A stretch of DNA of 64,000 nt from Amyelois transitella. Lineage: Eukaryota; Arthropoda; Insecta; Lepidoptera; Pyralidae. The DNA lies in contig NC_083506.1 in NCBI RefSeq assembly GCF_032362555.1, forward strand, positions 9,843,501-9,907,500. Reading direction: 5' to 3'. A program made the position numbers and the translations under genes. The notes beneath the pieces are model-generated. The model did no database searches and was not told the origin of the DNA. It was given only the letters and a program-made list of their open reading frames with translations. Positions 8,128 to 63,000 of this stretch are shown here, piece by piece. Within the stretch, counting starts at the first letter, position 1. Every line of letters starts with the position of its first letter.

Positions 8128-8176
8128 GCTGAGAATTGGGCTCCGAACTTCTGAAGTTCGGAGCCCAATTCTCAGC
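8128..8176. repeat. Perfect palindrome, 24-bp arms, 1-base centre
   Basis: Left arm 8128-8151 is the exact reverse complement of 8153-8176, with a single T between them. There is no flanking target duplication and no coding content. It is one of seven such foldbacks in the window. Confidence 0.95.
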
Positions 8177-42660: not shown

Positions 42661-42798
42661 GTGTATGTAATGAATTTTCATGTCTACTATGGTTTTGAAG
42701 ATTTCAATGGAAGGGTAAAATAATTGACAAGAAAATTTGCCAAGAAAGACAATTATCTTGGGCTTACCTAAATCTTCATTTCGATTTTTTGACAGAAC

Positions 42799-45165
42799 AT
42801 GGGAAAGTATCGAAAGAAAATTGGGTCACGGCCATACCGTAACTACTCCAATGAAGCGGTTGAAAATGCAGTGGCTTCAGTGCGAAAAGGTATGTCGATT
42901 AGAAAAGCTGCAGAAAAATATAATGTTCCACCAGCCACTGTACAGAGAAAAGTGCGTTGTAAGCATATGAATAAAGTTGGAAGACCCACAGTTTTTTCAA
43001 ATGAAGATGAAAATATAATTGTAGAAGCCTTAATTCTTTGCGGGAAATGGGGATTTCCTATAACAGCCTTTGACTTGACGCTTATTGTGAAGCAATACCT
43101 TGACACGAAGGGAAAGACAGAACCTAGATTTAAGAACAATTTGCCAGGAAGATTTTGGTTGAAAGGATTTTTAGACCGAAACAAACATGAAATTTCGTAC
43201 AAGTTTTGTGAAAACATTAAAAGAGCAAGAGCTGCTGTTAATCCTGAAATGATATCTGATTATTTTGATAATCTAATGATTAGCTTGGAGGGAGTAAAAC
43301 CAGAAGCAATTGTGAATTTTGATGAAACTAACTTTACCGACGACCCTGGAAAAACAAAAGTATTAGTAAGAAGAGGTTTCAAAAGTCCAAAAAATATCAT
43401 TGACGCTTCGAAATCGAGCACATCGGTTATGTTTGCAGGATCAGCATCAGGAGCTTTATTACCAATATATGTCGTATATAAGGCTGAGCACCTTTACGAT
43501 TCTTGGTTGAGAGGAGGGCCAGCTAATACATTCTACAATCGAACAAGAAGCGGTTGGTTTGACAGTACAACGTTTGAAGACTGGTTTTTCAAAGTGGTTG
43601 TACCTTATTTCAGTTCGGTAGGTGAAGGTCCGAAAGCAATACTAGGAGATAACCTGGCAAGTCATCTGTCTGTAAAGGTTATACAAAAATGTGCGGAATC
43701 AGATATTCGTTTCATATTTCTCCCTGCAAATAGTTCACACTTAACCCAACCGCTTGATGTCGCTTACTTCCGTCCACTTAAAGCAATATGGCGAAAAACC
43801 TTATTAGAATGGAAGCAGAAAACCAGGGGCTGCATTCCCAAAGATCAGTTTCCGCGACTTTTAAAACGATCGTTAGATCAACTGTTGACATCTTCAGAGA
43901 ATTTAAAGTCAGGGTTTCGTGCAGCTGGGATTTGCCCTCTCAACAAACAAACAGTTCTGGCCAAGCTTCCCGTTGAAACTCCAGAAAATAACAGCACATC
44001 TAAAGAATGGGCGAGTGCATTCGAAAGTTTTTTAAAAGAAAGTCGTCTTAATACATCAGCTCCTCTTAAAGTGAGAAAGAAAAAATTGCAAGCTTCGGCA
44101 GGTCAAAGCCTTACAGTCTCCGATATTACAAATCCTTCAAATACTCAAAATATTGAAGAAGTAGACGTGGGAATTTGTGATGCAGAAGAAGATTATTTAG
44201 AAGTAAACATAGATTCAGATCCATTATTTACGCAACCGAAAACAGCACGTGAAGAAGACACGGATACTACAGTTTCTAGCAATTATTCTGTACATGATAC
44301 ATCTGATAGTGATAATATATCTGAATTACAAGATTTCGATAATTTGATAGAAAAAACCACAACCCAATCAAATATCATTCCTAACATTAAATTAAAACAA
44401 CAAAGAAAACATGTATATTTAGATTCTGAAGATCAAGAAAATATATTTTTCCAGCCAAGAGTCTCTAAATCACGAGAAAAATCAAAAGGTGAAGAGGACA
44501 TAATTTCGCAATCAAAAATATCTAAATCAGTACAGAAACTGTCTTCTTCCACAAAAGATCAAAATAATGTAATTACTCAGCCAGAAGTATTTGCATCACC
44601 ACAGGAACCATTATCTTCCACTAATCAAGACGACATTATTACGCTACCAAAAGTATATGAACCAGAACAGCAACCATCTACCTCTAAATCTATTGATATA
44701 AAACGCAAACCTAAAGATCAAAACGATATAACTTCGCAGCCAAAAGTATTTAAATCAACACAGCAACCATCATCCTCCAAATCTGCTAAAATGAAACTGA
44801 AACAAATTTTAAGTGAAACCAAGAATGAACATATAGAAACCGAACCTACTTCTGAAGTATCTGTAAAAATGTATGACTTTGTAAAAATTCACTTAATATA
44901 TGATGGCTTTAAAAATAAACCAATGGTAAAAGAGTTCTTTGCTCAGATAACTGAAATATTAAATGAGAATGAGTATTCCTGTAAGTTTTTGAGAAAAAGC
45001 ACAAATAAAGGAATTTATGTATTTCCCCCTGTTGATGATATTATGACTGTTGACTCTCAAAAAATTATATCAGTTGTTAAGCCAGTATTGTTGAAAAGAG
45101 GTCGTTACAGTTTCAATGTAAATGTAAGTAATATAAAGCCAAATCTTATTATTAATGAAGACTGA
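42799..45165 (+). CDS. Pogo-like (HTH plus DDE) transposase with repetitive C-terminal tail
   Basis: Transposase of 788 residues in one open frame from ATG 42799. Residues about 15-60 form a psq/CENP-B type HTH (NEAVENAVASVRKGMSIRKAAEKY is the recognisable region, with the next lines RKVRCKH). A second DNA-binding segment follows (NEDENIIVEALILCGKWGFP...GRFWLKGFLDRN). The DDE domain shows D175 in NFDETNF, D284 in GDNLASH and D320 in SSHLTQPLDVAYF, with 35 residues between the last two; all three acidic residues are present. The tail after about 400 is acidic and Ser-rich and holds diverged tandem units of about 30-35 residues around DQNDITSQPKVFKS, then a conserved-looking end (KMYDFVKIHLIYDGFKNKP). 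No stop or frameshift interrupts it, so it could be active. A splice acceptor-like TTGACAG just before the ATG hints at a leader intron. Confidence 0.92.
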   Translation: MGKYRKKIGSRPYRNYSNEAVENAVASVRKGMSIRKAAEKYNVPPATVQRKVRCKHMNKVGRPTVFSNEDENIIVEALILCGKWGFPITAFDLTLIVKQYLDTKGKTEPRFKNNLPGRFWLKGFLDRNKHEISYKFCENIKRARAAVNPEMISDYFDNLMISLEGVKPEAIVNFDETNFTDDPGKTKVLVRRGFKSPKNIIDASKSSTSVMFAGSASGALLPIYVVYKAEHLYDSWLRGGPANTFYNRTRSGWFDSTTFEDWFFKVVVPYFSSVGEGPKAILGDNLASHLSVKVIQKCAESDIRFIFLPANSSHLTQPLDVAYFRPLKAIWRKTLLEWKQKTRGCIPKDQFPRLLKRSLDQLLTSSENLKSGFRAAGICPLNKQTVLAKLPVETPENNSTSKEWASAFESFLKESRLNTSAPLKVRKKKLQASAGQSLTVSDITNPSNTQNIEEVDVGICDAEEDYLEVNIDSDPLFTQPKTAREEDTDTTVSSNYSVHDTSDSDNISELQDFDNLIEKTTTQSNIIPNIKLKQQRKHVYLDSEDQENIFFQPRVSKSREKSKGEEDIISQSKISKSVQKLSSSTKDQNNVITQPEVFASPQEPLSSTNQDDIITLPKVYEPEQQPSTSKSIDIKRKPKDQNDITSQPKVFKSTQQPSSSKSAKMKLKQILSETKNEHIETEPTSEVSVKMYDFVKIHLIYDGFKNKPMVKEFFAQITEILNENEYSCKFLRKSTNKGIYVFPPVDDIMTVDSQKIISVVKPVLLKRGRYSFNVNVSNIKPNLIINED

Positions 45166-47932: not shown

Positions 47933-49066
47933 ATGTATTCTGAAGTTATTAAAACCGTTAACTCTGTTCCAACTCGTATTTTGACATGGGGAAATCCTTT
48001 GGAAAGTGACCAAGGCGAAGTTATAGTGTGTATATCCGGGAACCCCGGATTACCAGACTTTTATATTGAATTTGCATCAGAGTTACATAAATTGACTGGA
48101 TTACCAATGTGTGTTATTGGTAGGTATTCTTTTTTTCATTATATATTATAATACTAAATAATACTATTGTACCTAACCTTTTATCCAGCTGTTCTCGCTC
48201 ATGTAGGAGAAGACATTGACACAATAAGACAGATAGTTTCAGATAATATTGCACTAGCGTTGGTGTTAAACTACTTGGTTTTTGGTAAAATAATGAAAAA
48301 TATAATATTTGGGTTTGCACACTAATTTATCACCATTTTTATTTCAGGTCAAGCTGGTCATGATTGTGTAACTAATCAGCAGGCTTGCGTTTTGAAAAAT
48401 AATAAGCATTTATTCTCCCTTCAAGGTCAAGTAGAACATAAGTTAAACTTTATCAATGAATGTATTGATAATAATTGCCATATACATCTCATAGGTCATT
48501 CAATAGGAACATGGATGATTATTGAAATGCTGAACAGGCATTCTGAACTGATTAATAAAATATTATCCATAAATTTACTATTTCCGACAATTCAAAGAAT
48601 GGCATTGGCACCCAATGGAAAATACATTACAAATGTTTTGTCTAGGATTCATATATTGCTAATGTTTTTTATCAATATAATTCATATTCTGCCCGAAGCA
48701 GTTCGTTCTTTCTTTATTAATTTATATATTAATTGGAATAAGCTGCCGCCATCATATAATAGTAGAATAAAAAAGTTTTTAAGTCCAACTAGCTTTGAGA
48801 AGATGTTGTTTTTAAGTTATGATGAAATGGCAAGGGTTACAGACATAAATAGAAGTGGCATTGATAAAATAAAACATCTGACAAACGTTATATACAGTGA
48901 TAGAGATGGCTGGGCACCAGTTAGCTATATGGAAGATTTAAAGCCATTTCAGCCTCCTCTGCAAATGAAACTTGTCAGTGTGGATCATGCATTTGTTTTA
49001 AAATCATCTGAACAAGTTGCAAGTATGACTGAAGGTTTTATCAAGAGTAAAAAATTAAAGCATTAA
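47933..49066 (+). CDS. LDAH: Lipid droplet-associated hydrolase
   Basis: Alpha/beta hydrolase of the LDAH (C2orf43) family, proteins found on lipid droplets and linked to sterol ester turnover. Exon 1 (47933-48119) joins in phase 1 to exon 2 (48348-49066, stop TAA) for 301 residues. Seen in sequence: the family start GEVIVCISGNPGLPDFYIEF, GQAGHD at the junction, and the nucleophile elbow GHSIG with S114. A C-terminal YSDRDGWAP supplies the likely Asp and VDHAF the His. The lid region between is hydrophobic (LLMFFINIIHILPE) as expected for droplet anchoring. A poly(A) signal sits just after the stop. The start ATG is the first in frame; the length agrees with the family at about 300-325 residues. 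Confidence 0.93.
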
Positions 49067-52000: not shown

Positions 52001-53609
52001 AAACAATGTACGTAGCACAACATTACACAAAGTTTATGTGGTTTAATTTAATTTTGAGCATAAGGCTACCGCTTTTACAGTTGCATGATATTTGTTGTAA
52101 TCTTGATAGTGTAACACATGCAAGCCCTTAGTTGAGTTGTTGGAAACTGAGGATATAGATAGAATCATGACGTTCGCCTCCATCTTCAGGCTTTCCAGCC
52201 AGGAGACAGGGGCAAGACACACGGGAGGCAGTAGCGCGGAATAGTGGCAGAGGGACTTAGTGGCCTTTGGGATTTCAAATATCGCAGCGACTCTGTTAAT
52301 ATCTGTCTTAGTAGTCTCAATACAATTTTTATTTTTCTGTTTATCAGTCTACTATATTATTTAATCACCATCGGAAGATACCCAAGAAGAATTTTGAAGC
52401 ATTTTTATATTTTTGATTCAAATAAATATAATCCACTACCATCTTCCCACTGCTCCCAAAAAGGTTGAAAAATTATATTCAAGAACGGGGACGACCGCTA
52501 AATTGTTGCGTTGCGGTAGCCTTTTATATATAAATTACAGGAAGACAAAAGACTAGCAACATTATCGAAACAAAGGTTCATATTTTGATTTCAAGAATAT
52601 TTTTAAATATTACATAACCAATGCATAGCGCAACGCGTTAGTAGGTACCCATTGAATTTAAGTATAGGCACAGTGCTCACATAATTCTCGCCCATACAGA
52701 GGGAAGCAATCCAAAAAATAAAAAACACAAGAGTATGAAGTTTTGCGATTTATCTATCGGACAAATTTTTATCCGCCTCTTGAAAAGCTACCTCTTGTGA
52801 CCTAAATTGCTTCCTCCTGTTTGTACGGCCCTTAATACACTGACAGTCAAATTGTTTCGAACTACAGTAATGAAAATAGAGATTAGGAGCCACAATGAGA
52901 TTTTGAAGGTTTTGTTTTTATACAACTGGACGTAATTCAATATTACATAACAGGGGCTCTTTCCTAATGGAATGTTATAGGGTGCTATTCACTTACTTCG
53001 TTCATACCATTTATTTATATCTGATTATGGTAACAGCTATAATTTGTGATAATTTCATAGCATTATATTTTTACGACTCTAACTATATATGTACAATGCC
53101 TGGAAGATAATTTTGAAAAACAGCAATTTCAGGTTACTAGTACAACTGAATGATTTCACATTATTAAATTGTGCGTAAATTCATAACAATGTGTAATATG
53201 TAAAACAGAATCTTTTAAAATATAATCCGGGTTTAAATATAATAATGTTTAGATATATGTTATCATTACAATGGAAATAATAATACCTAACTCGACATTC
53301 GTATTTATGCACAACCTCCTGAAGTAAAATATAATTACAATGCAAAACCTTTTACGATCATGCTCCATCATCATAATATTACATACATATCCCTTTACAA
53401 TAATTGAATATGATACAATTATAATTTTGAAACCTTATTACTAAAGGGATACAAAATTCACAATAATAATACTCGTACATCAAAAGGGACAACACACAAT
53501 CATACACAGGTTATAAATCGTCATCCCGTCCAACGGTCGACCGGACGACACGAAACTTTATCTATATTTCTAATCGTCCCGTTTAGCTCCAATCGAGACC
53601 GCGGCAACT
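49079..53609 (-). other. AT-rich non-coding stretch, possible 3'UTR of ABHD17
   Basis: 4.5 kb with no credible gene on either strand. It lies directly downstream of the ABHD17 extension frame, so part may be its 3'UTR. A 175-bp inverted-repeat unit lies at 51762-51936. A less AT-rich patch at about 52160-52260 has a short minus-strand open frame that I could not connect to anything. Confidence 0.4.
51762..51936. repeat. Short element with inverted ends GTCGC...GCGAC
   Basis: The first and last roughly 28 bases are imperfect reverse complements sharing TTTTAACCACA. It could be a small MITE or a structured RNA segment. No clear target duplication. Confidence 0.45.
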
Positions 53610-54841
53610 TCAACACGTAGTCTCTAGCAGCGGATCTGCTACCTTTTTTACGCCATCTATATCCACTGAGGAACATATAATTTTTTGGGAAGCGGACTTA
53701 TAGGGGCGACGCGGGCGATCATCGTCATCCGAGAGAGCCCGGGGCGAGGGTCGCGGCGCGAGGCGGGCCGGCGACGGGCGCGGCGAGCGCGCCTCGCACG
53801 TGCACTGCGCGCCCAGCGAGCCGCCCGCCGCGCGCGCCGCCCGCGCCGCCCGCCGGCACTCGCAGCTCTCGAGGCCGCACGTCTCGCACCCCACGGCCGC
53901 CCGCCGCTCCAGCTTCCCGCGTTTGAAAGTCGCGCTCTCGCGTCGTGTTTCCGATTCGCCGCTCGGCTCGCAGCCCTCCTCTCTTGTCGCGTTGCGGTCG
54001 CGATGAGTTTCCGTAGCGGATCGAGCCGTCGGATTTTTTACCCAAGGATCGAGGGATTGGCGAGCGGATTTAGAGCGCCCGGAGGCACTTTCGAGGTCGA
54101 TTTCGCTCATCTTCCGCCAAGGGTTTCCCGACAGGGTTGCAGCTTCGCTCATCCCGCGGTCTCGGAGACGCGGCCGCGCCTGTGCCGTGTCGTCGGTGTC
54201 GCGGCGATCTAGGCCGTGCAGCGAGGCGTCGGGCGAGGAGCGCTCGCTGCGCACGGCGCGCGGCACCACAGCAATGGGGAGATGCGAGGGCGAAGGCGCA
54301 GGTTCGACTGTGGGCCGCTCGGAGTGCGAGCGAGCGCGCGGCACGTGCGCGCGGCTGGCGGGAGTCACGTCACTCAGTGATCGTAGGTGTATACGACGCC
54401 GGACGCCCACTGGGGAATCCGTATCGGTAACGTTGATGCTGATGTTATGAGCGACGGGCTTCGGACTTTTATTATCTTTAGATCCGACATCATTATTGTC
54501 TACACACTTATCGTTCTCTTTAAAATTACGTGGGCTGACAGAACTGTTCGTATTAGCAGAATTTTTGTTGGGGCCGGCCCGGCTGGGCCCGGCCCCCGCT
54601 AGCTAGAGGAGTCTTTCTGTTGCTGAACTTGAAGTGCCAGAACTCAATGTCGAAGCAGGGTTTTGGTCGTCACCTAAACAAAATATGAATGTAAAATAAT
54701 GTAAAAAGAACATATGTGCCTAACATATGTTTTGTTTTATAAAAAGTCAACCACACTTAAAGTACCTACAAAGTACATATATTATAGTACTATAAAAACA
54801 AGCTCACCTTGAGTAGTCTGGCCAGTGGCCGGCAGTCTTTG
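53610..54841 (-). CDS. In-frame 3' extension of ABHD17 (candidate readthrough product)
   Basis: Beyond the ABHD17 TGA, the same frame continues for 34 codons: 54841-54808, then, across a GT-AG intron with consensus ends, 54673-54606 (peptide ends GTSSSATERLL). A TAG at 54605-54603 is followed directly by CTAG. From 54602 the same frame is open for 330 codons to TGA at 53612-53610. This part is Ser/Arg/Pro-rich and GC-rich amid AT-rich DNA, with a Cys cluster CETCGLESCEC and CTC, and ends VDIDGVKKVADPLLETTC. Its first ATG is 151 codons in (54152), which argues against independent initiation. An alternative acceptor 8 bases further (after CTAGCTAG) would remove the TAG and keep frame. Coding status is inferred from length, frame continuity and composition only; it may be plain 3'UTR or belong to another isoform. 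Confidence 0.5.
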
Positions 54842-57652
54842 TCAGTTGAGCAATTCTACTGAAACAAATCGCTTCAGCCTTTCTAGGTATTGGTTAAAGA
54901 GTTCGACATCATTATGTCCGGCACCCTGAAAAACATAACAAATTATAATAATAACACACACAAATTCCATCATTGAGATTCAGTAATTAAGTTTAGTAAA
55001 CGCTTACTTATCATTGAAGGCAAGAAAAGCAGCTGGCACATATAATCATTTGTCATGGTGTTATTGAATAAGAAATATGATGCTTACCTCTACCCATAAG
55101 GGCTCCACAGCGCGCGGACAGCGTTCGTATATTGCTAGTCCATGTGAGAAGTCAATCACCTCATCTTCAGTGCCATGAATAACAAGGACTGGAGAGGTCA
55201 CTTTGGGAATTTTGTCAATACTGTAACATCATAAAATACTTGCATTAGATTTGTAAGTAGGTATAATAAACAATCTATTGCCTGCAATTGTTTGCCGTAA
55301 AAGTTCACTGACAATCTTTCTTCCCCTCTTTTAACCCCTTCGCCCCTTTTTTGCCAATGTTCTTCCTCAGGGTTATCTCTATCTCTCTAATACCACATTT
55401 CATCAAAACCGGTGCAGTAGTTTAAAATTAAAAGCATAACAGACAGAGTCACTTTCACATTTATAATATAATAGTAAGTAGATTGCCTTTACATTTATCA
55501 GCTTCTGCCTTCATTAAACAAAGTTTGGGGTACTGTACCTAAACACATATAGGCAGATTGCATCAAGGATCTTCTAAAGTGAGAATAATAAAAGGGTAAT
55601 AGCTAGAGTATATTACAAGAATAAACTTAAACTAAAAGATTTTGAGAATGCTAAAAATTTTAATTTAAGCAAATAATAAAACTTACATAAATTGATATTG
55701 TATACACTGAAAGTGAACAATCAAATTTTATGTACAGACACAATACGGCTGACTAAGTAACTAGGGCTAAGTTGTTATATGTAAAGTGAAAGCATAACAA
55801 CCACTGAATTAAAGTAGTAAAAAAACATGTATTACAGGTATATTATCCATGTAAGTACATAAGAAATGTTAATGCAGGATATTATAACACAAACTCGTAA
55901 GGTAATGAACACAAACTTGTAATTAGGAAGAGTTTTGGCCCTAGCTGTAGGACTACACAATAGGTTGAGATTTTTATACTAACTTTCTCTTCCTACTTTT
56001 AATAAGGTCTTTTTTATATGGGACTGATAATGCCATATATTCATAGTTGTTTTTTGGAAATGATGTCAGCATGCTTAAAAACACATAATTATATTGAAAA
56101 ATCATTGCAAAAATCTGAGAAATAGGTCAAAAATCATAGCAAAAATCTGAGAAATAGGTCAACAGATAGAATCATTTTTGAAACTATGAATAAACTTTAA
56201 CAGCATGTTAGGGAATATATTTTCTAGTATTTTATATTTTAGTGCCAAGTGGTTCCCAGCACCAATATAAAAAAGAATAGGACATCTCCATCTATATTCC
56301 ATGGATGATATAAAAAGAGACTAAGGGATAGGTTTATAAACTTGGGATTCTTCTTTTAGGTGATGGACTAGCAACCTGGCAAAATTTGAATCTTAATTCT
56401 ATCATTAAGCCTAACAGCTGAACATGGCCTATTAGTCTTTCAAGAGCTCTGGCTCTGTCTACACCCCAAGGGATATAGACATGATTATATGAATGAATTT
56501 AAGGTATTTATAAAATAATAGTTCATACATAAATCTTATTGATCAGTTCACCTCACTGAACTTGTTGAATATTCTTGTTAAACTTTATAACAAGTAACCA
56601 GAATAAAAAAAAACTTCTTATTGAAAAGTGGGACACTTCAGTTATTTCAAAAGACATGGTGTGATTCCATTTCTACATGTAAGGTGGGTTCAATGCAATT
56701 ATCAAAAATAAATTACATGATAAGCATTGTAAAGGAAGGCTCTAATTTGATAACAAGTCTGGTCAAAACATAACACAGTGATAAAACAGAGTGAATTGTA
56801 AATGACTCATGATAATGAGTGATAAATACGCATGAATTATTCGTAATTGAGCACTGATTTATATGCTACATGAACTTCACTGTAGAAATAGATGTCAATG
56901 TAAAGAGAATTTGATTAATGAATTAAAAACATAGTTATTTTAGAAAACTATGTACTTATTTCTATGAAATTAGTTAGATGATGTCAGTTGTTTATAACCA
57001 CATACCTTGGAAAGGCATCGAAGAACCATGTCCTCTTGGTGTTGGGAAACGCGACTCTCATGCCAGACATTAGAGGAGAGTGCAGCACCACAGCACCCAC
57101 TTCATACCGAGCAGCCAGGTCCACAGTGGGAACTGTTCCAATGCTCTGTCCATACAGGATTATATTCTCTGGGCTGATGCCATAACGAGTGCGTAACGCT
57201 TGCCAGGCAGCGTCTATATCCGCGTATAAATTCTTTTCTGATGGCTTTCCACCACTTACACCATAGCCAGAGTAATCATAGCTGAATATATTACAGTTTA
57301 TCCTAGTTCCTAAACCTAAGTAAAAACTACTCATTTGTCCGAGATCTACGGCATTTCCATGAGAAAACAATATCGTAAAGCGAGCGTTAGGGCTGCAACG
57401 AACAAAGAGACAAGCGATTCTGTTGCCTCTCGATGTTCTGGAGTAGAAACCCTCGATGTTCTCTTTTTCCCTTTCGGAATACTGCCATTCTGCTCTTTCG
57501 GTGAGGGTCAGCGAAAACTTGGATCCCGTTTCGTCGGGTGTGAATGCATACGTGGGTTCAGGAGGCAGGAACGCTAACTTAGCCGCAATTTTCCCCGGGC
57601 ATGGCGGACAACAAAATAGGCAACATAGTTCACTGAAACTTAACCCGTTCAT
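54842..57652 (-). CDS. ABHD17-type palmitoyl-protein depalmitoylase
   Basis: Serine hydrolase that removes palmitate from membrane proteins such as Ras and PSD-95 in vertebrates. Exons 57652-57006, 55220-55088 and 54925-54842 (TGA) join in phases 2 and 0 to 287 residues, the normal ABHD17A/B/C length. The N-terminal Cys cluster ([13 protein letters not shown]) is the palmitoylated membrane anchor. [11 protein letters not shown] is the oxyanion region. The catalytic triad is S170 in YGQSIG, D235 in [10 protein letters not shown] and H264 in [26 protein letters not shown] is the usual family block. Only one start is plausible ([11 protein letters not shown]). The third exon runs past the TGA to a donor at 54808, so an intron follows the stop, an arrangement that normally triggers nonsense-mediated decay concern only if more than about 50 bases away; here it is 34. 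See the in-frame extension at 53610-54841. Confidence 0.95.
55221..57005 (-). other. Intron 1 of ABHD17
   Basis: 1785-bp phase-2 intron. It contains a full-length SINE-like copy (56241-56497) and a worn repeat tail at about 55360-55480. Nothing else recognised. Confidence 0.8.
56241..56497 (+). repeat. SINE-like repeat, full-length copy
   Basis: Left half (agtggttcccagcaccaat, AAAGAATAGGA, ggattcttcttttaggtgat) and right half (aatcttaattctatcattaa, agctctggctctgtctacac, gggatatagacatgatta) are contiguous here. This copy serves as the model for the split or partial ones. Confidence 0.8.
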
Positions 57653-60074: not shown

Positions 60075-63000
60075 TCACGGTTCTGTACTTGTGAATCTGT
60101 CAATTGGGATCCAAAACTCTAGGGCGGAATCGCAGGTCCCAACCACCAATATGTCATTGAGGTACCGCATCTGAAAAAGTTTTAAAGGAATTTGAAATGT
60201 TTTGTTTGTCCCTTGTTATTTTTATCTACCTCGAGAAGCCTGGCGAAATTACTATATAGGTTTCAGACAAAAACTTAAAATAACGTAAGGTCAATTAAAA
60301 AGATATTATGATGACTAAAACAATTTTTACATAATAAATACCTATATAAAGACAAATTACACAGATTGAGTTAGCCTCGAAGTAAGTTCGAGTCTTGTGT
60401 TACGAGATACTAACTCAACGATACTATATTTTATAATAAATACTGAGATAGATAAACATCCAAAACCCAGGCCAATCAGAAAAAGTTATTTTCTCATCAT
60501 GCCCTATACATGGCTTTTGAATTCATTATATTGAACCCTGGGTAAATCGCAACATGTTGGAAATTCTTCGACCTTTGCTCTCTCAAGTCCGCAGTCAGCC
60601 AGACAGAAATGGTGAAAATACAGTATGCCACACGTGCTAATGTTCACTATATACATACGATCACGTCATCATCCCTTATGGGGTAGACAGAGTTTACAGT
60701 CCCGCAAAGATTGATAGGCCATGTTCAGCTTTATAGTGGAATGGAGATTCAAATAGTGACAGGTTGCTAGCCTATCGCCTAAAAGAAGAATCCAAAGTTT
60801 AATAGCCTAAGGAATAGTCACCATTTACGACATCTATGAGTAAAAGACCCTATTCTAAAGTGCCGGAAACTACACGGCATATTAATGTATCCAAGCTAAA
60901 ATTAATTACCTGAGTGACATCACTTGTGGTAGCCTTGATTGAAGCAAATTCTTGAGGTGGATAACAGTTATACAAAAACTTGATTTCTCCTCTGTCCGAG
61001 CATAAAACCATTGTTCCCTGACTTTGATAGCAACTAGTTATCTTACTAGAGGGCCTGATAATAGGCGGCTCGGGCCAGATCTCGTGAGATTTCAGGTAAA
61101 CATGATCTTCAGGGTTAATCAAGTGAACGCACCCTTTTGAATCACCAACATACATTGCAGTTGGGCACCAGCTAATGCAAACTGGGTAAGCTTTATCTGT
61201 AGGTATTTTAATATCATTTTTTAGTAGTTTTCCAGCTACTTTGTCCCAGATAGCAAGTGTTTTGTCCTCACTCACTGAAGCTACCATGTTGTTGTAAGTA
61301 TGTAACGCTAACACAGGACCTCTGTGGGGTTTATAAGAACTGATCGGACTAGGCCCTACTCTGAGATCAAAAGATAATACTTTCTTAGAATATAATCCCG
61401 CCATTACTATGTTGCCTTCGGAGACAACTGATAATGCTGACATACCACATCTGTAAGTAATATTACAAACAATGATAACATTATGAAATGAGAATGCATA
61501 AAATGTATAATCTTAAACCAAGGATCTGGTCTGGGTATAGGAATAGGAAAATTGACGTACCAGCACTTTCACCACAAAAACTGATAAGTTTCCATACTCA
61601 CTGGAACGTTTCCAAACATGCAAAGCCAGCTTCTAAATCCCAAGCTTTCACTGTGTTGTCCCATGAGGCAGAGAATATCTTTGTGGCTGCTTCCATATTG
61701 TCTGCGGCCAGATCCCACACCCAACCAGAGTGAGAATCATACCTAATGTGCCTTGGTCTTACATCTGTCACTATGTTGCAATATTCATTTTCAACAGAAG
61801 GTTTGACATCTTGAACTCTCCACAAAGCAATTCCGCGGTCCCTCCCACCCGACACACATATTTCAGCATTCTAAAAAAGTTACAGGAGCGTAAAAAGTTA
61901 ACAGGGACTTGAGCAAATATGGCATATAGATAGAGATCAAGCAAATGTTTTTAACCTGATGTTGTGATTCAATTTGCCAAATCAAGTGTGATAAAAATAA
62001 GTATGTAAAGTTAGATATGATTCAGACCTCATGATCATAACTGATCTCATATTTAATAATTTACGTAATGTATTTGATACGCTGAAAAAATATGGCAGAG
62101 CTACTCAGGGAAGCTCTGCCTGAATAATCATTTGAGATTTTGTATTTACTCACATTTACTAGGAGAACAGTATCTACAGAGGCAAAATGCACATCTTTTA
62201 CAGCTATATGTTTCATGGTTTGTTCTACATTGGCCCACTTCTTTCTCTCTATATCCATTTCTACACATATGTCCTCCCAGTTTACTTCAACTTCCTCCCA
62301 CAATCGTAGGTGGGGAAGTGGGGGGAAGGCCCCTTTTGCTTTGCTGTGAATCCAGTTTTTCCAAAGGTGTTCATCAGCCAATATGTCATCAAACCTCTTG
62401 CATACTTTACTAAGGGTATTTCTCAGAAAATGGGGGTCCAGAAATGAGCATATATTCAGAATTATCTGCAATAAATATATATATTTCTTTATTTTCAGAT
62501 AACTATGATCCATAAAAATATATGTACAAGAGACTTAAAATAATTATGTTAGTACTTACTCTAACTTTTTATCTAACTTAAAAAAATAAAAAAAATATTT
62601 GCCTGTTTGAGAGATGATATAGTTGACTTAACAAAATATTATATAAGCTATATTTGCTGTTTATCTAATCACTAAATTATTCTTCACTTCTTATTAATTT
62701 AAAGAAACAACTAATATAACAAATGAAACAAAAGATTATAGTACCCCAGCCCCATGCTAAATCGGCAATTTACTTGGCTATACCTTAGATGATAAAACGA
62801 AAAAAAATGTCTATAATATAATTATACCTACCTAGCCTTCATGAAATTAAGAGCCTTTATGAAAAAGATGAGATGTGGATGAAGCGAAAGAAGTACGCAG
62901 ATCGTGGCAAGTGAAAAAATGAAGTCTCAGTCTACCGGGTGGCTCGAAAGAGGGATGATTTTATGTGTTTACGTTTTAATCGGTGGATGGCTATTGATTT

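Follow-up and report, generated by a model that had tools for sequence, protein, structure and literature searches.

Readthrough of two successive stop codons is established in insects, with flies and mosquitoes providing the best-documented examples of abundant readthrough. For Anopheles gambiae, 35 double-readthrough candidates have been reported, 13 of which have adjacent stops (PMC5100048), and ribosome profiling in Drosophila recovered one predicted and one unpredicted case of double readthrough (PMC3840789). Conserved extensions in Drosophila are reached at a median readthrough rate of 5.2% (PMC3840789), and long fly extensions are described as disordered, with many short interaction motifs and no Pfam domains (PMC4999894). 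In Drosophila dfr, a stem-loop spanning +9/+10 to +58/+59 after a UAG stimulates readthrough, and its effect weakens when it is shifted by 3, 6, or 9 bases (PMC13170385). Here we analyzed a 64,000-nucleotide stretch of the moth Amyelois transitella (contig NC_083506.1, forward-strand positions 9,843,501 to 9,907,500; hereafter the window, in whose numbering positions are given), in which a minus-strand gene with the features of a depalmitoylase is followed by two in-frame stops and a long open frame. We refer to this gene as ABHD17, a tentative name that follows the label used in the original prediction, which was made from the letters of this stretch. Readthrough of both stops is, on balance, probably the best explanation of the coding-like frame that follows them, and ABHD17 would thereby add a new, long case to those already described. 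Readthrough of ABHD17 was not found in the literature searched, which did not cover supplementary lists of fly and mosquito readthrough genes.

Read along the spliced minus strand, the 287 codons of ABHD17 end in a first stop, TGA (54842..54844), which is followed by CAAAGA (54836..54841). Thirty-four open codons (QRLPATGQTTQGDDQNPASTLSSGTSSSATERLL) then lead across an intron to a second stop, TAG (54603..54605), in the context TAG-CTAGCG, with the CTAG directly 3' of it at 54599..54602. Another 330 codons stay open (53613..54602; the candidate readthrough tail) up to a final stop, TGA (53610..53612), and past this TGA (53612-53610) the same frame meets further stops after 8 and 15 codons. The phase 1 intron between the two stops (54674..54807) has the donor CAAG|GTGAGC and the acceptor TTTGTTTAG|GTG, which score 5.4 bits each under a model built on 20 introns, and it keeps the phase; taken by itself, the second part of the 34-codon stretch (54606..54673) lacks a significant coding signal. 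The layout of the original prediction, a TGA-CAA, 34 codons over a phase-keeping intron, a TAG-CTAG, and 330 codons, was thus reproduced. An AATAAA at 53010..53015 on the same strand is a possible polyadenylation signal of the long mRNA. A further AATAAA lies within the tail frame, at 54468-54473; if it were used, the ABHD17 mRNA would end in the tail without a final stop. The bases 3' of it are neither T- nor GT-rich.

Both stops have a leaky context, defined as UGA or UAG with C at +4 (TGA-C and TAG-C). The first stop is followed by a hexamer that matches CARNBA, a readthrough motif that stands after 19 of the 2282 TGA triplets of the window; of the 1796 TAG triplets, 6 have CTAG directly 3' of them (both strands in each case). 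The two motifs were chosen after the sequence had been viewed, so that these frequencies are not formal P values. CARNBA has been named as a readthrough stimulator in yeast, and a UGA with CUAG behind it is characteristic of the mammalian readthrough genes OPRL1, OPRK1, MAPK10, and AQP4 (PMC4132726).

Directly 3' of TAG-CTAGCG, a 27-base segment (54570..54596) is predicted to fold into a hairpin of -26.6 kcal/mol, whose stem is paired from +10 to +36, counting the T of TAG as +1. In 38-base folds, the stability of this hairpin ranks first downstream of 1795 TAG triplets on both strands and fourth among 8185 stop triplets of all kinds, and 3 of 200 shuffles were as good (z -2.7). The hairpin stretch is 93% G+C (guanine plus cytosine), and its flanks are 49% and 38%. 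Its rank among 1722 50-base windows from the spliced 3' part is 64th; the better local minima listed lie 730 to 791 bases past the TAG, in a very G+C-rich region. With CARNBA after the TGA, and CUAG together with a hairpin at the dfr spacing after the TAG, the sequence context is stronger than the original prediction noted. Near-perfect inverted repeats that form hairpins of about -27 kcal/mol also occur in the window at 8130-8174 and around 31139 and are possibly miniature transposable elements.

The 330-codon frame itself is probably coding. It contains no stop, whereas across the same stretch the other two forward frames have 12 and 15 stops and the three reverse frames 6, 3, and 12. Dinucleotide shuffling left 330 codons open in none of 2000 trials with 200-base blocks and in a fraction of 0.0006 of 5000 trials with 150-base blocks. 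Three-base periodicity, measured as base composition by codon position and compared with 2000 shuffles, was significant over the whole tail (P 0.0025) and in codons 1-150 (P 0.001). Around 53500, some 110 bases past the final stop, the G+C content drops from 0.64 to 0.26 between the flanking 500-base windows. A position-preference score trained on G+C-rich open reading frames of the same genome was highest for frame 0 when all six frames of the entire tail were compared (z 3.3; 2.8 with another training set), and codon log-odds derived from kinase and homeobox matches in the same genome, with stops penalized, placed frame 0 narrowly first of six (0.014 versus -0.035 for the next). Compared with its own genome, the tail matched nothing other than itself, and it matched nothing in PDB, Pfam, viral contigs, or prokaryote genome contigs, collections in which an insect orthologue is not expected; these misses say little because the collections searched hold no insect genome beyond its own. 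Taken together, most measures of the 330 codons favor coding, and some are weak or mixed.

A number of observations weigh against readthrough of both stops. The evidence comes from a single genome, and two leaky stops in series would yield little product. When the OPRL1 context was assayed in a mammalian test, placing UAG instead of UGA before CUAG cut readthrough about 3-fold (PMC4132726). The structure after the TGA is not unusual (z 0.58), the hairpin after the TAG stands out less when longer stretches are folded (z -2.0 for 50 bases and -1.9 for both 80 and 104 bases), and its 27 bases fall short of the 35-base minimum applied in a Drosophila screen (PMC13170385). The 34 codons between the stops show no coding signal by codon log-odds or by shuffling (open in a fraction of 0.353 of 5000 shuffles, not significant), and a frame shared by ABHD17 and the tail is expected 1 time in 3 by chance alone. 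Within the tail, half of the shuffles (0.487) also keep codons 76-150 open when these are taken alone, the periodicity of codons 151-330 alone is not significant (P 0.27), and among six 55-codon windows, just 3 have codon log-odds in favor of frame 0. ABHD17 exon 1, which served as positive control for the position-preference score, reached only z 0.3; the score failed in this control and was therefore given little weight. At codon position 2, the tail has a G+C content of 0.60, whereas the highest value among the 41 sampled open reading frames longer than 200 codons, all of them from kinase or homeobox genes, is 0.50; G+C-rich noncoding DNA could therefore account for some of the signal.

Such an origin, with the tail an untranslated, G+C-rich 3'-untranslated region or regulatory DNA that is open in one frame by chance, is unlikely, and of the alternatives it is the one that survives best. 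Under it, the very high G+C content at all codon positions, the second included, the mixed codon log-odds, and the missing periodicity of codons 151-330 would be no surprise, and the opposite strand also bears long open frames, of 180 and 147 codons. It does not sit well with the rarity of an open frame among the shuffles (a fraction of 0.0006 or less), with the periodicity of the tail as a whole, or with the drop in G+C so soon after the final stop; moreover, long fly extensions likewise tend to disorder and are without Pfam domains (PMC4999894).

The ABHD17 gene is intact and encodes 287 residues over three coding exons on the minus strand. Exon 1 (57006..57652) begins with the ATG at 57652, encodes the N-terminal Cys cluster (Cys 10, 11, 14, 15, and 18) and the nucleophile Ser170 within GQSIG, and ends in a phase 2 donor; exon 2 (55088..55220) contributes Asp235 and has a phase 0 donor; and exon 3 (54808..54925) holds the catalytic His264, the first stop, and 34 bases past that stop, where the phase 1 donor CAAG|GTGAGC follows. 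The protein matches the alpha/beta-hydrolase family Hydrolase_4 of Pfam (1.5e-13), and a PDB search with it returned distant hydrolases only. An alpha/beta-hydrolase domain, a Ser-Asp-His triad (Ser170, Asp235, and His264), and an N-terminal Cys cluster, the features of the depalmitoylase family, are all present.

A splicing route around the stops is possible and poorly supported. Donor and acceptor models were trained on 20 introns of this genome that had been inferred to separate neighboring exons of kinase domains; they were fitted by means of the profile gap, the frame, and iterated modeling that started from an insect consensus. For L067, L072, and intron 1 of L063, the fit is at odds with the profile gap and is doubtful, and L075 is not in the set. 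In this calibrating set, acceptors range from 0.2 to 10.4 and donors from -1.8 to 7.8. A minor isoform that splices out both stops and translates the tail conventionally, which comes second among the alternatives and which we also regard as unlikely, could join exon 2 (phase 0), or a weak exon 3 donor ahead of the TGA, to an acceptor after CTCCTCTAG (exon from 54602), or exon 1 (phase 2) to the acceptor 54534 (phase 2). These joins keep the tail frame, but the available acceptors score under all 20 calibrators, namely 54602 (-4.3) and 54598, which follows TAGCTAG (-5.1), both of which bypass the TAG, and 54534 (-0.5), the best one deeper in the tail. The same is true of the exon 3 donors ahead of the TGA, at 54924 (-2.0), 54907 (-11.8), 54865 (-13.2), and 54859 (-3.4). 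Besides its normal donor, exon 2 has a believable internal one at 55159 (3.3), yet no good acceptor is available for it to join. Joins from exon 1 or exon 2 would also lose His264, and in AHO-3 of Caenorhabditis elegans the triad is essential, including His285, the residue that matches it (PMC3506735). As for the alternative acceptor that the original prediction saw 8 bases on, the site is present; its exon would start at 54598 and not at 54597, and its score of -5.1 is unconvincing.

An explanation in which one or both stops are recent, through nonsense mutation or polymorphism or through an error of assembly, and the C terminus of ABHD17 is normally longer in this lineage, is compatible with a single assembly and is nonetheless improbable. 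It needs two separate stops, each in a recognized leaky context, and one of them is followed by a hairpin stronger than that of every other TAG in the window; in addition, the first stop probably sits at the usual end of animal ABHD17 proteins.

Even less probable is a second cistron that starts at an internal ATG or at a non-ATG codon. The first ATG of the tail is codon 151, at 54152, and it does have a G at -3 (GCGGGATGA); from there onward, the frame is open against 5.1 expected stops (P 0.003). However, the 150 codons ahead of this ATG are open as well, in a stretch expected to contain 4.4 stops (P 0.007, with 0.024 for codons 1-75 and 0.487 for codons 76-150), and periodicity is clearer before the ATG (P 0.001) than after it (0.27). 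Entry from upstream is therefore likeliest. Minus-strand exon scans of 60840-54680 returned nothing besides exons 1 and 2 of ABHD17 and pieces inside exon 1. The strict scan missed exon 2 (acceptor 1.8 versus a threshold of 2), which was recovered by the relaxed scan; exon 3 holds the TGA and is consequently invisible to both, and the scans could likewise overlook a partner exon like it or one whose splice sites are weak. As far as these scans reach, ABHD17 is the only visible upstream partner of the tail.

Decoding of the UGA as selenocysteine is very unlikely, for although the first stop is indeed a UGA, 52900-54950 gave no Rfam match up to an E value of 5, none of the 20 hits to the selenocysteine tRNA (tRNA-Sec) in the genome exceeded the 47-bit cut-off (best 46.9), two loci accounting for 3 of these hits, the best included, were identified by ARAGORN as tRNA-Ser(UGA), selenoproteins have been reported lacking in sequenced Lepidoptera (PMC2500217), and the UAG would be left unexplained. 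With neither a selenocysteine insertion sequence (SECIS) element nor a tRNA-Sec detected in these searches, the selenoprotein reading was set aside.

By sequence alone, splicing, an internal start, an antisense gene, and selenocysteine each explain the frame no better than readthrough of both stops. According to the readthrough model, ABHD17 would be spliced into a long transcript that ends near 53010, for which the exons and good splice sites are present in the DNA. Most ribosomes would terminate at the TGA and yield the 287-residue enzyme. A small share would read the UGA by a near-cognate tRNA, aided by the next C and by CARNBA, and would stop at the UAG after about 322 residues; some of these would also pass the UAG, aided by CUAG and by the hairpin from +10, and end at 53612 after about 653 residues. 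If both stops behaved as the average fly case, at the median rate of 5.2%, the double product would amount to well under 1%; the signal at the UAG may exceed this average. We propose only tentatively that ABHD17 has two separately tuned leaky stops that set these three graded forms, a scheme that seems to us somewhat doubtful.

With the extension, the catalytic triad would remain intact, and a small share of the enzyme could gain interaction or lipidation sites. The original interpretation, in which such a tail could also change the targeting of the enzyme, is supported in part. The tail is rich in Arg, Ser, Ala, and Pro, disorder-promoting residues make up 63% of it, and the charge-hydropathy rule puts it on the disordered side. 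An AlphaFold2 model from the single sequence had a mean predicted local distance difference test (pLDDT) score of 44 and one helix, which fits disorder and is uninformative. The extension is accordingly predicted to be disordered, and the disordered tail that had been proposed before agrees with both the composition and the single-sequence fold, as a prediction. Ten Cys residues occur in the tail, six of them at residues 239 to 269, and an added lipidation or metal-binding site would be a guess.

Several other features lie in the neighborhood of ABHD17. An open frame with a GHSIG motif is found at 48326-49066 on the plus strand; by eye it resembles a lipid-droplet-associated hydrolase and is presumably a second alpha/beta hydrolase near ABHD17. 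Upstream of ABHD17 and on the same strand, F-box- and WD-repeat-like exons were recognized by eye at 60850-62534 (minus strand). A 790-codon open frame at 42793-45165 (plus strand) looks by eye like a pogo/Tigger-type transposase. Outside the window, many homeodomain matches are packed together on contig C9 of G000, at about 3.63-4.82 Mb, a crowding that we assume to be the expectation for the Hox cluster with the extra lepidopteran Shx genes.

If readthrough of both stops is true, this moth gene with two different leaky contexts would offer a clean natural experiment on the interplay of stop identity, hexamer, and hairpin. A palmitate-removing enzyme would then have its C terminus set at translation, possibly a new layer of control over membrane signaling proteins, and the longest form of ABHD17 would carry a disordered tail bigger than the enzyme itself.

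Among proteins, the closest described relatives are the ABHD17/FAM108/AHO-3 depalmitoylases, with which the moth protein has in common the Cys cluster, the hydrolase domain, and the Ser-Asp-His triad (PMC3506735, PMC8523714). Unlike the tail found here, a long insect extension goes unmentioned in the passages of these two papers, and the AHO-3 paper left the C-terminal sequence of the Schistosoma homologue out of its alignment (PMC3506735). Among readthrough signals, the mammalian genes OPRL1, OPRK1, MAPK10, and AQP4 likewise have CUAG directly 3' of the stop, which is UGA there and UAG here (PMC4132726). Drosophila dfr shares with ABHD17 the UAG, the C at +4, and a stem that starts at about +10, whereas its bases +4 to +9 are CAAUCA instead of CUAGCG and its stem-loop extends to +58/+59, compared with a hairpin of 27 bases in ABHD17; the dfr element was tested by reporters and in flies, and that of ABHD17 is known from sequence (PMC13170385).

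What is notable in ABHD17 is the combination of such a dfr-like element with the length of the second extension and an intron between the stops. Like the double-readthrough genes of Anopheles and Drosophila, it has two in-frame stops, C at +4, and coding-like sequence beyond (PMC5100048). Those genes were called from alignments of many species and ABHD17 from one genome, and ABHD17 differs from them in the 330 codons of its last stretch and in the intron that separates its two stops (PMC5100048).

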